IMG/VR virus record: IMGVR_UViG_3300028559_002717
Location: 1 to 37,262 of that record
Length of the DNA stretch: 37,262 nt
From: a virus
Direction: 5' to 3' (one strand)
In this document: positions 10,979 to 13,596 of the stretch, piece after piece
Numbering within the stretch: the first letter of the stretch is position 1
Layout of the letters: each line of letters starts with the position of its first letter
Translations under genes and position numbers: made by a program
Notes under the pieces: model-generated
The model's database searches: none
Seen by the model: the letters and a program-made list of their open reading frames with translations, nothing else
What the model was told of the DNA's origin: nothing

Positions 10979-11418
10979 TCGAAAATCCTCAGCTGGTCGG
11001 TGATCGAAAACTCCACCCCATAGGCCAGCAGCCCGGGCTGAAGCGTGATGAGCTGGTGGCTCTGGTAGGCGAACACCCCGACGGTCTCGGCGGGGGTCCA
11101 GCCCGCGATCGCGCGGATCGCCGCGTCGATCGTGGCCTCGACGGCGGTTTGCGCCCGATCGCCAGTCGGGTTGTCGATCGCGGGAAAGGACAGCACGACG
11201 CTGATCACCTCTTCGGTGATCTGGCTGAACACAGCCGTGGCCGTATCCGGGGCGCGGCCCCGCCCTCCGCGCGGAATGACAAAAGCCAGGGCGCCCAGCC
11301 CCTTCATTTCGCCCGACGCCATCAGCCGCGCCAGATCGAGCGCGACCCGCACATCGCGCAGCGGGTCGGGGGTCAGCCGGGCCTTCAGGCGGTCCACGAT
11401 CGGCTGCAGCGGGATCAT
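10975..11418 (-). CDS. Tail terminator, Mu gp37-like (147 aa)
   Basis: Follows the gp36-like connector gene, where Mu has gp37, and precedes the tail tube gene. The start MIPLQPIVDRLKARL and the mixed alpha/beta pattern with SQITEEVISVVLSFPAIDNP and the closing EFSITDQLRIFE match small tail-terminator or tail-completion proteins. These cap the tail tube and mediate joining to the head. ATG 11418 overlaps the gp36 stop by one base (TGATG). The gp37 assignment is by position and size; the tail-terminator role is family knowledge. Confidence 0.75.
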   Translation of the reverse strand: MIPLQPIVDRLKARLTPDPLRDVRVALDLARLMASGEMKGLGALAFVIPRGGRGRAPDTATAVFSQITEEVISVVLSFPAIDNPTGDRAQTAVEATIDAAIRAIAGWTPAETVGVFAYQSHQLITLQPGLLAYGVEFSITDQLRIFE

Positions 11419-11846
11419 CAGATGAACCCCCGCATGTTGTCGGCGGTGAACTCGCGGTCGCGGTCCACGATCTGCACGCCCGAATTGCCCGACGCGGCGG
11501 GCTCAACCCCAGCGATGCTCAGCAGGACCACGCCCTGGGCGATCTCGCGCAGCAGTTTCATGGCGGCGTCGTAGTCCGCCTTGACCTTGGCCTCGGGTTC
11601 AGAGCTGTGCAGTTTCCACAGCGCAATCGCCTGGGCAAGGTCAGCCACCAGGGCGGGCGTGGCGGCCAGCGGCAGGGCATAGCGGCCCGACAGATAGCCG
11701 TCGATCACCGCATCGGTGTCGGCCAGCGCGCGGGCCAGCACGGCGGTGTCGATCACCCCCAGCGGGATCGGGCCGCGATCGGTCAGGGCGATGATCCGCC
11801 CCTCGCCGAACCGGTCCGTCAACTGTGCCTGGGTGCAATAGGTCAT
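11418..11846 (-). CDS. Head-tail connector, Mu gp36-like, DUF1320 (142 aa)
   Basis: DUF1320 protein. The N-terminus (MTYCTQAQLTDRFGEGRIIA) and the segment VIDGYLSGRYALPL are characteristic of Mu gp36 homologues, which form the adaptor between portal and tail. The helical remainder (LAQAIALWKLHSSEPEAKVK, then YDAAMKLLREIAQG) also fits. It lies between the Acb2-like gene and the tail terminator; the ATG follows the upstream stop by one base. Size is normal for the family. Confidence 0.88.
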   Translation of the reverse strand: MTYCTQAQLTDRFGEGRIIALTDRGPIPLGVIDTAVLARALADTDAVIDGYLSGRYALPLAATPALVADLAQAIALWKLHSSEPEAKVKADYDAAMKLLREIAQGVVLLSIAGVEPAASGNSGVQIVDRDREFTADNMRGFI

Positions 11847-11847
11847 G

Positions 11848-12228
11848 TCAGTCGGCCACCGCCGCCCGGACGGCGCAGTCCTTGGCCTCGAGCAGCTTGC
11901 GCCGGCAGGCGGTGCGTTCGGGGCTGCGCAGCGTGGTCTTCACGATCCGGTCGGCCAGCATGGCGAAGGGCCGCGAGATCGACTGCAGATGGTCGGGCAG
12001 GTGCTTCCAGGCGAACCACTTCAGGATCGGCTCATCGCAGGACACCGGGGCCTCGTGGGGGGGCTGCACCTCGTGGATCAGCAGGTCCCGGCCGGAATGA
12101 ACGTGGAACGTCTCTGCGAACCCCGCCTCGACGGTGACCAGCGGGCCGACGAAGGATCCGTCGGCGGTCAGCGGCATCACCCGCACCGGCAAGCCGTGGT
12201 TTGCTTCAACAAGGATCGTCGTGGTCAT
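11848..12228 (-). CDS. Acb2/Tad1-like hairpin protein, candidate anti-CBASS/anti-Thoeris sponge (126 aa)
   Basis: Start ATG 12228 has AGGAG 8 bases upstream. Residues 1-60 are beta-rich (LPVRVMPLTADGSFVGPLVT, then ETFHVHSGRDLLIHEV). Residues ~68-126 carry the helical-hairpin pattern of the Acb2/Tad1 family: an aromatic helix start (LKWFAWKHLPDHLQSISRPF), a helix with LADRIV, a turn SPERT (102-106), and the helix KLLEAKDCAVRA (111-122). Known Acb2 and Tad1 proteins bind cyclic oligonucleotides or gcADPR and block CBASS or Thoeris signalling. In the transposable Pseudomonas phages where Acb2 was described, its gene also lies among structural genes. The N-terminal half is an extension relative to the minimal hairpin proteins. 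The hairpin assignment is by remembered motif; activity is untested. Alternative: a virion protein using the same fold. Confidence 0.65.
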   Translation of the reverse strand: MTTTILVEANHGLPVRVMPLTADGSFVGPLVTVEAGFAETFHVHSGRDLLIHEVQPPHEAPVSCDEPILKWFAWKHLPDHLQSISRPFAMLADRIVKTTLRSPERTACRRKLLEAKDCAVRAAVAD

Positions 12229-12254
12229 CGGGTCGCTCCTGGGACAAGTCGGGT

Positions 12255-12312
12255 GGCCGTCTCTCCGGCCTGTCACGGGCATCCTCCCCCGTTCATCCGG
12301 GTCCGCGCCCGG
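12255..12312 (-). other. Hairpin-bearing leader of the Acb2-like gene
   Basis: The 166 bases from 12229 to 12394 hold no convincing gene. Two inverted repeats are visible: GGCCG/CGGCC (12255-12259 with 12266-12270) and CCGGG/CCCGG (12297-12301 with 12308-12312). In this tightly packed operon such a gap is unusual and may hold a promoter, a processing site or a transcript-level control for the gene downstream. No clear -35/-10 pair was found. Confidence 0.3.
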
Positions 12313-12394
12313 CTCGCCTACTCGGATCGCCCGCCCCTGCCGCTCTGAGGGCTTCGTGGGGTCGGGTTCGCGATGGATCCTTTCGCTCGGGATG

Positions 12395-12634
12395 TCAGCT
12401 GATGCCGACGATCAGCTCAGGGTCGTCCATCAGCGCCTCGAACTGCGCTGGCGTCAGGTCGCGGGCCCGGATGATGACGGCCTCCGGGGTGAAATGCCGA
12501 CCGGCGCGCCAGCGGCCCCGGGCGGGGCCCTTGATGGTCAGCGTCTCCCCTTCGCCGGTCTGCACGGGGTCGATGACGGTGGGGTCGCTGACGGCGGGGT
12601 TCAGGTCGGGTTCAGCGGTGGGTTTACGGGCCAT
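12395..12634 (-). CDS. HI1506 / Mu gp35-like small protein (79 aa)
   Basis: Follows the major capsid gene, as FluMu HI1506 and Mu gp35 do. The middle has the family pattern of a basic beta turn followed by a preference for T-P-E and A-R-D-L (GRWRAGRHFTPEAVIIRARD), then LTPAQFEALMDDPELIV, the usual acidic C-terminal helix. The N-terminal 25 residues are acidic and disordered. Function in Mu is unknown; it may contribute to head completion. ATG 12634 has AGGAG upstream. Confidence 0.75.
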   Translation of the reverse strand: MARKPTAEPDLNPAVSDPTVIDPVQTGEGETLTIKGPARGRWRAGRHFTPEAVIIRARDLTPAQFEALMDDPELIVGIS

Positions 12635-12702: not shown

Positions 12703-13596
12703 TCAGGCCAGCCACGGCACAACGAGGAGTTCCGCAGTGCCTTTCCATTCGTTGGTGATCCCGCCCGTGCCGTATTCCGAGTTCACCAGTTGCCGGGCCG
12801 CGCTTTCCAGCGCAGGCGGCACCACCAGAAGGTTCGGCACCAGGCCCAGCGGATTGCCGCCATCGGACTTCATGTTGGAAATCCCCGCCCGCGCGATGGC
12901 ATAGTTGGCGGCGTTCAGGGTCTGCTTCGACCCCCAGGCCAGTTGCGGCAGGCCGTAACCGACGTTGCACCGCATATCGACGCCATAGACATACTCGTTG
13001 CGCAGAAAGACGTTGTCGTCCAGATCGCGGTCCTTGGCGACGAACATGGGGGCCTTGCGTTCCTGGTAGATGATCGGCTTCAGCGGACGGTTGGTGCACA
13101 TCAGGAACCACGGGGTGCCCGCGCCGCCGTCGGTGTTGGCATAGGTGCCGGTCGAGCCGTCGGCGAGCTGGATCGGGTGGTCGGTGTCGAAGAAGAACTG
13201 GCCGTCGAAACAGTTGGTCGCGAACCCGGCTTTCAGCAGCGCCCAGACCAGTTCCTCGGGCAGGCGGGCCGCGCCGTCGCCCATCATGCTGAAGGCGTCG
13301 GAATACATCGCGAGGTTGTCATCCTCGATGAAGTTCCGCGAGACCGCGACCGTCTTTTCGAAATGCCGGTTCAGAATGACGTAGGAGGCTTCGGTCAGGT
13401 TGTCGATCTGGCGCGGGCCCAGCCATTCGCGCAGGCCGGTCTGGCCCTTCAGCCAGCCATAGGTGTTCATCGCGGTCGAGGAGCGCACGGTCTTGGCGAT
13501 GCGGTCCTTCATCTTGGGGACGGAATCGTAGGCGTTCTGGTATTCGGCGCTGAAACCGACACGCAGGGCCTGAAGGGAGGTTTGGGTGATGATCAT
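12703..13596 (-). CDS. T: Major capsid protein, Mu gpT family (297 aa)
   Basis: Mu-type major head subunit. The N-terminus (MIITQTSLQALRVGFSAEYQ) and later segments such as EWLGPRQIDNLTEASYVILN, HFEKTVAVSRNFIEDD and KDRDLDDNVFLRNEYVYGVD are conserved across gpT homologues. The length is normal for the family. It lies after the cement protein and protease/scaffold genes. HK97-like fold and assembly into the icosahedral head are family knowledge. Translation starts at ATG 13596, with AAGGA upstream. Confidence 0.95.
   Translation of the reverse strand: MIITQTSLQALRVGFSAEYQNAYDSVPKMKDRIAKTVRSSTAMNTYGWLKGQTGLREWLGPRQIDNLTEASYVILNRHFEKTVAVSRNFIEDDNLAMYSDAFSMMGDGAARLPEELVWALLKAGFATNCFDGQFFFDTDHPIQLADGSTGTYANTDGGAGTPWFLMCTNRPLKPIIYQERKAPMFVAKDRDLDDNVFLRNEYVYGVDMRCNVGYGLPQLAWGSKQTLNAANYAIARAGISNMKSDGGNPLGLVPNLLVVPPALESAARQLVNSEYGTGGITNEWKGTAELLVVPWLA

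Follow-up and report, generated by a model that had tools for sequence, protein, structure and literature searches.

The 37,262-nt stretch of viral DNA analysed here (IMG/VR record IMGVR_UViG_3300028559_002717, hereafter the window) encodes a 126-amino-acid protein that is probably a two-domain sponge for a nucleotide immune signal, carried by the phage as an accessory anti-defence gene. We base this reading on a C-terminal helical hairpin of predicted Acb2 topology, on the apparent remote homology of this hairpin to the Acb2/Tad1 hairpin family (PF24729), and on the finding that Acb2/Tad1 and Tad2 domains can take its place after the same N-terminal domain (N-domain). We infer that the hairpin would oligomerise and bind a nucleotide immune signal of the infected cell, for example a cyclic oligonucleotide of CBASS or a cyclic ADP-ribose of the Thoeris type, and that sequestration of this signal would keep the defence effector inactive. 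The N-domain would be a swappable module common to sponges of the Acb2/Tad1 type and of the Tad2 type, where it probably helps the sponge to assemble, stay stable or reach its place, or broadens the ligand range. The features of the locus are collected in Table 1.

Table 1. Features at and around the gene of the 126-aa protein, with positions in the window.
Feature	Position	Strand	Basis
Gp36 head-tail adaptor, downstream neighbour	11418..11846	minus	PF07030 E 2e-34
Gene of the two-domain protein, 126 aa, MTTTILVEANHG...AVRAAVAD	11848..12228 (stop codon included)	minus	ORF list and relatives
C-terminal helical hairpin domain, residues 66-125	11854..12033	minus	AlphaFold2 pLDDT 93-94; PHROG_1761 E 1e-22, PHROG_5120 E 4e-19
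N-terminal beta domain, residues 1-57, 'ANHGWPVDVT...VHSGQDLLIHEVQP' family	12058..12228	minus	33 distinct proteins and model strands
166-nt leader between the FluMu_N-like gene and the 126-aa gene	12229..12394	minus	sequence
Shine-Dalgarno AGGAG, 7 nt before the ATG	12236..12240	minus	sequence
Leader hairpin TGACA-GGCCG-GAGAGA-CGGCC, 26 nt upstream of the start codon	12255..12275	minus	exact 20-mer in 66 contigs
FluMu_N-like protein, 79 aa, upstream neighbour	12395..12634	minus	Pfam PF17891 E 0.003, below cut-off
Major head protein gpT	12703..13596	minus	PF10124 E 4e-113

The original prediction had proposed a gene at 11848-12228, and we located there a complete 126-aa reading frame with an ATG at 12228, the AGGAG listed above and a TGA at 11850-11848, 1 nt before the start of the Gp36 gene. 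The gene is encoded on the minus strand, and we discarded as wrong the frame that the plus strand has over the same positions. The motifs that had been noticed in the translation (an aromatic helix start, LADRIV, SPERT and KLLEAKDCAVRA) are all present and turn out to be part of a large conserved family. Direct sequence searches of Pfam, NCBIfam and PDB with the 126-aa protein yielded no match. Identical copies of the gene occur in two loci (L081/L082), and a search with the full-length query reached a full-length relative with 85% identity in L105. This last contig is binned as Burkholderiales, yet its phage genes resemble those of Rhodobacteraceae phages, and it is possibly misbinned.

The genes around the 126-aa gene encode gpT, the FluMu_N-like protein, Gp36, a tail terminator, a tail tube, a tape measure, MuF, a portal and a MuA transposase; portal, MuF, tape measure and MuA together confirm a Mu-like phage, and the predicted placement among Mu-like head-tail genes was borne out. 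The head genes have their closest sequenced counterparts in two phages of Rhodobacteraceae, Thiobacimonas phage vB_ThpS-P1 and Rhodobacter phage RC1. In both, one gene lies between those of the major head protein and the Gp36 homologue, and the slot after it, before the Gp36 homologue, consists of just 93 and 54 nt respectively, with no 126-aa gene. Elsewhere the same slot holds an N-domain gene alone (L086/L288), an N-domain gene and a PF24729 gene (L092, L298) or an N-domain gene and a small membrane ORF (L310). Because the slot is empty in ThpS-P1 and RC1 and differently filled in other contigs, the 126-aa gene is insertable cargo and not a core head-tail gene. Homologues of the hairpin are found in mutually unrelated contexts, next to thymidylate synthase, holin or small terminase genes or in an immunity region. 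Other phages encode the N-domain beside genes for a holin, an endolysin or tRNAs. N-domain genes also lie immediately upstream of a head-tail/portal-like gene at L303:3355 and 3705 and at L299:4000, the two in L303 being in tandem and one of them having a C-terminal extension of unrecognised type.

An AlphaFold2 model of the full-length protein, built from a 47-sequence alignment, reached a pLDDT of 93.1 with a pTM of 0.57, so that the placing of the two domains relative to each other is undefined in the model. The beta-rich N-terminal domain of the original prediction is recovered as five strands (residues 2-8, 15-21, 31-33, 38-44 and 47-53; pLDDT > 95), and the C-terminal part is modelled as a short helix (66-72) followed by two long antiparallel helices (79-98 and 103-125), with a pLDDT of 93.8 and a pTM of 0.80 when the hairpin was modelled alone. 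An Acb2 protomer likewise consists of a short N-terminal helix and two long antiparallel helices (PMC12043709), and the hairpin as predicted shows this topology. Foldseek searches of PDB returned only unrelated beta domains with the full model, neither Acb2 nor Tad1 among them, and no match with the hairpin alone; in a viral library the search retrieved an 'Acb2/Tad1 hairpin domain-containing' protein with a probability of 1.00 and a TM of 0.73 to the target, but at an E-value of 0.13.

The hairpin belongs to a family that we name LLEAKD after its motif and that is spread over 296 phage records (tblastn) and hundreds of viral contigs, including phages of Vibrio, Erwinia, Acinetobacter, Gordonia and Mycobacterium, mostly as stand-alone proteins of ~60-80 aa labelled hypothetical; Gordonia phage Ruthy gp8 and Acinetobacter phage Ab105-2phi ORF46 are examples of stand-alone homologues. 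The window hairpin is about 44-65% identical to hairpins of diverse phages and carries the conserved F-x-Y-x-H-L-P...LRKLLEAKD core of the PHROG_5120/1761 family, with only its hairpin part matching PHROG_1761 (positions 62-139 of 148). Among the fetched loci, KLLEAKDC is present in 152 of 153, a near-invariance due in part to the search seed, and members found without this seed vary at the motif (for example IRSLWEAKNLAVFA and LQKLIEAKDCFVRA). The same set shows no variation at F72, H76 and L77 and almost exclusively aromatic residues at position 74 (Y in 75%, W and F in 10% each), and the conserved core of helix 2 comprises E104 and R110-C118. The aromatic Y8 of T4 Acb2 is required for cyclic-dinucleotide binding (PMC12657218), and by analogy F72 and W74 are the foremost candidates for ligand-contact residues, a likeness drawn without structural superposition. 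With the Panoptes OptSE reporter in E. coli, sponges suppress the formation of colonies (PMC12657218). A profile search of PDB with the hairpin matched none of the Acb2/Tad1 structures; as no deposited structure matches the family by sequence, it is unlikely to have been solved, though it may have been described before.

Whether the hairpin is Acb2/Tad1-like, as originally proposed, has a divided answer: hairpin topology, remote homology to PF24729 and interchange with sponge domains speak for it, but the protein is not a direct member of the PF24729 profile. The profile search that had been suggested as a check gave no PF24729 match even at E=10, the gathering threshold being 27 bits, and only two of 36 relatives matched, at E of about 0.1. 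Two single proteins bridge the gap, Brevibacterium phage AGM1 gp27 to PF24729 (E 0.011, 16.4 bits) and Gordonia phage Ruthy gp8 to phrog_1454 (E 0.0065), and back the relation at weak significance. A profile-profile comparison of the hairpin family with the 'REKSLALTKLEEA' (REKS-type) PF24729 hairpins gave a score of 30.6 (P 6e-6), above all 400 decoys (200 column shuffles, maximum 19.5; 200 block shuffles, maximum 26.2). These 'REKSLALTKLEEA' hairpins match PF24729 at up to E 5e-26 and PDB 9ptq, 'Acb2 homolog 43', at E 3e-4. Compared in the same way, the founding Acb2 branch (PaMx33 gp24; PDB p26) showed no direct link to the family (P 0.79). Taken together, the sequence profiles suggest that the hairpin family shares remote ancestry with PF24729-type hairpins. 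At the aligned position equivalent to N92 of cbTad1, which we take to be the gcADPR-binding position, the hairpin family has R, K or L, which makes Thoeris binding in the manner of Tad1 doubtful.

The main evidence for a sponge is domain swapping. Using N-domain-only queries, which are blind to the C-terminus, we retrieved 33 distinct proteins, 26 of which lack a recognised fusion partner; the family also exists as a stand-alone phage protein of 60-90 aa. In the other seven, the partner is the LLEAKD hairpin (three: the window, L105 and L306), PF24729 (two: L089 and L314) or a Tad2-like PF11195 domain (two: L299 and L325), so that all recognised fusion partners are a sponge or the LLEAKD hairpin. 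In the two contigs of the capsid-Gp36 slot that carry both genes, the PF24729 gene begins right after the stand-alone N-domain gene, and a Tad2-like gene lies directly downstream of a hairpin-family gene at L018:4413-, L050:3470- and L178:5001-. In Vibrio phage 1.185.O, the LLEAKD hairpin is fused to the unrelated 'SWSPKDVFERAY' (SWSPKDVF) N-domain. The second N-domain, 'IGxKxVxAxxMTxxEYNxYRGW...GYISWSPKDVFERAY' (L094:4923-5330; L348-L424), is joined to Tad2 in 42 of 66 distinct viral ORFs, and Pfam searches assigned its other partners to PF13876 in L360 (E 8e-10) and L424 (E 5e-26), to PF24729 of the Tad1-like kind in L398 (29.2 bits) and to PF21825 in L383 and L404. PF13876 is the Acb4 family (PMC11722364). 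The hairpin thus exchanges with experimentally known sponges in two unrelated N-domain frameworks, which suggests that it occupies a known nucleotide-sponge slot. As separate observations, PF21825, a small helical domain related to crAss001_48, is by its place behind a sponge-linked N-domain a candidate for a further sponge family, and a reverse-strand gene in L444 near 9763 reads as an internal deletion that joins the first residues of the N-domain to an Acb2-type hairpin end, behind the same TGACA/GAGAGA leader hairpin. A survey for the N-domain in 395 genomes of one bacterial family gave zero matches, with 16 candidates scored per genome and no positive control, and is uninformative.

The leader that had been described as having hairpins of its own does exist and contains one conserved hairpin, but as a whole it folds no better than its shuffles (z=+1.1), and a search of Rfam with it matched nothing. 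By a hand count on the alignment, its ~82 nt nearest to the gene (about 12237-12320) share ~95% identity with L105, against 83% for the coding region. About 0.1 exact occurrences of the hairpin 20-mer would be expected for the size of the collection (a rough estimate) against the 66 IMG/VR viral contigs that have it, often 15-60 nt ahead of a small ORF, or ahead of a tRNA. With the GGCCG stem excluded, the loop is GAGAGA in 8 of 14 distinct hairpins with TGACA, a perfect stem and a 6-nt loop, and TGACA precedes 8 of 12 GAGAGA hairpins, counts that derive partly from loci fetched with the 20-mer; a control with the loop reversed yielded 0. Stems that vary while TGACA and the loop stay fixed are the pattern expected of a structured element. 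Among loci obtained with protein queries, half of the distinct copies (5/10) have an N-domain, SWSPKDVF or PF24729-type gene 20-50 nt downstream, and the hairpin is not restricted to such genes. Stem variants are found at L407:1455 and 1799, at L237:1931 and 2201 and in L434, L438, L456, L463 and L490, and many phages without relation to one another have TGACA/GAGAGA hairpins ahead of tRNAs and small genes. Searching Rfam with 15 loci that carry the leader hairpin returned tRNA and tmRNA only, none at the element. A promoter with TGACA as -35 was considered and dropped, since no conserved -10 follows it in the contexts that we listed and inspected by eye. Cluster K mycobacteriophages have start-associated sequences, short conserved elements just upstream of small phage genes, which the leader hairpin resembles in position; it differs from them in sequence, having TGACA, a changing stem and a GAGAGA loop.

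Other readings of the protein have to be weighed against these data. Small helical hairpins are a common fold, and this, along with the failure to match PF24729, to link to the p26 branch or to match Acb2/Tad1 in PDB, argues against a sponge. We hold it improbable that the protein is merely a divergent ordinary Acb2/Tad1 with the known ligand range and a hexamer, for which the N-domain would be a decoration: the shared topology, the remote homology and the fusion of the same N-domain to real PF24729 hairpins would fit such a protein, whereas the PF24729 profile failed at any threshold, the Acb2 p26 branch is unlinked and the N92-equivalent position is not N in the hairpin family. It is also unlikely that the gene encodes an accessory protein directed at something else, such as nucleic acid or a protein of the host, with a hairpin that is a generic protein-binding fold and with N-domains that occur in sponges too only because genes of this kind cluster in counter-defence islands. 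This would agree with the 26 N-domain proteins without a sponge partner and with the very strong conservation of the hairpin core, which is biased by the seed motif, and the nucleotide binding of a sponge is itself something that we infer; the remote PF24729 homology speaks against it, as does the fact that two unrelated N-domains link it to sponges of three kinds by actual fusion, beyond mere neighbourhood.

A role in completing the head-tail junction or decorating the Mu-like particle appears highly unlikely. The gene does lie between the gpT/FluMu_N genes and Gp36, and in the PDB profile search the best match of the hairpin was to residues 426-471 of Gp22 of 8jaj, a phage structural protein, at E 0.003; this match weakens to E 1.8 with another query, and we took it as possibly due to chance. 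Conservation in close relatives, as expected of a virion-structural protein, fails in ThpS-P1 and RC1, the hairpin homologues adjoin holin, thymidylate synthase, small terminase or immunity genes, and relatives of the N-domain adjoin endolysin or tRNA genes. The attachment to the virion that had been raised as a possibility is therefore unsupported. The parallel drawn with Acb2, as a gene among the structural genes of transposable Pseudomonas phages, fails for the founding phages PaMx41 and PaMx33 (Fredfastierviridae), whose gp24/acb2 is on the opposite strand, just past the structural block.

The sponge reading can be extended tentatively to a modular system, which may hold although we would sooner expect that it does not: at least two unrelated N-domains would serve as front ends for Acb2/Tad1, Tad2, Acb4-family and LLEAKD domains, the new hairpin would bind a ligand outside the range of known sponges, and some of the genes would be co-activated via the TGACA-stem-GAGAGA-stem hairpin. 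If the protein is indeed a sponge, an unrecognised class of immune-signal sponges, now labelled hypothetical, would be present in hundreds of phages, one collection alone having 296 records. Thanks to the swapping of N-domains, new sponge families could then be sought simply by examining which other domains are fused to these front ends, PF21825 (crAss001_48) being an example. Ligands outside the known set would in that case indicate defence signals still undescribed.

Among known families, PHROG_1761 and PHROG_5120 represent the hairpin itself, and both are unannotated. Tad1 (PDB 7uav, 8kbg) has the same order of a beta domain and then a two-helix C-terminal hairpin; its N-terminal antiparallel beta-sheet (PMC12043709) means that the extra N-domain, although present as predicted, is not a feature foreign to sponges. 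In contrast to this shared order, the N-domain has no detected sequence relation to that of Tad1 (no PDB sequence match, and unrelated Foldseek matches of the beta domain), the Tad1 motif SREN is not preserved and Tad1 was matched neither in PDB nor by Foldseek. The Tad2-like domain (PF11195) is a different domain to which the hairpin has no detectable sequence relation, yet it can take the C-terminal place behind either N-domain, that of the window protein or SWSPKDVF, and its gene neighbours that of the hairpin in three loci. Compared with Acb2 (PF24729 Acb2_Tad1_hairpin; PDB 8h2j, 8ixz, 9ptq), the window protein lacks a PF24729 match and has its own conserved core RKLLEAKDCAVRA, an entry F-x-Y-x-H-L-P with invariant F, H and L, and an extra beta domain. 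What it would share with Acb2 is the predicted arrangement of a short helix and two long antiparallel helices and, by profile, a remote homology to the PF24729 subgroup of Acb2 homolog 43; a PF24729 hairpin can stand in its place behind this N-domain and in the capsid-Gp36 slot.
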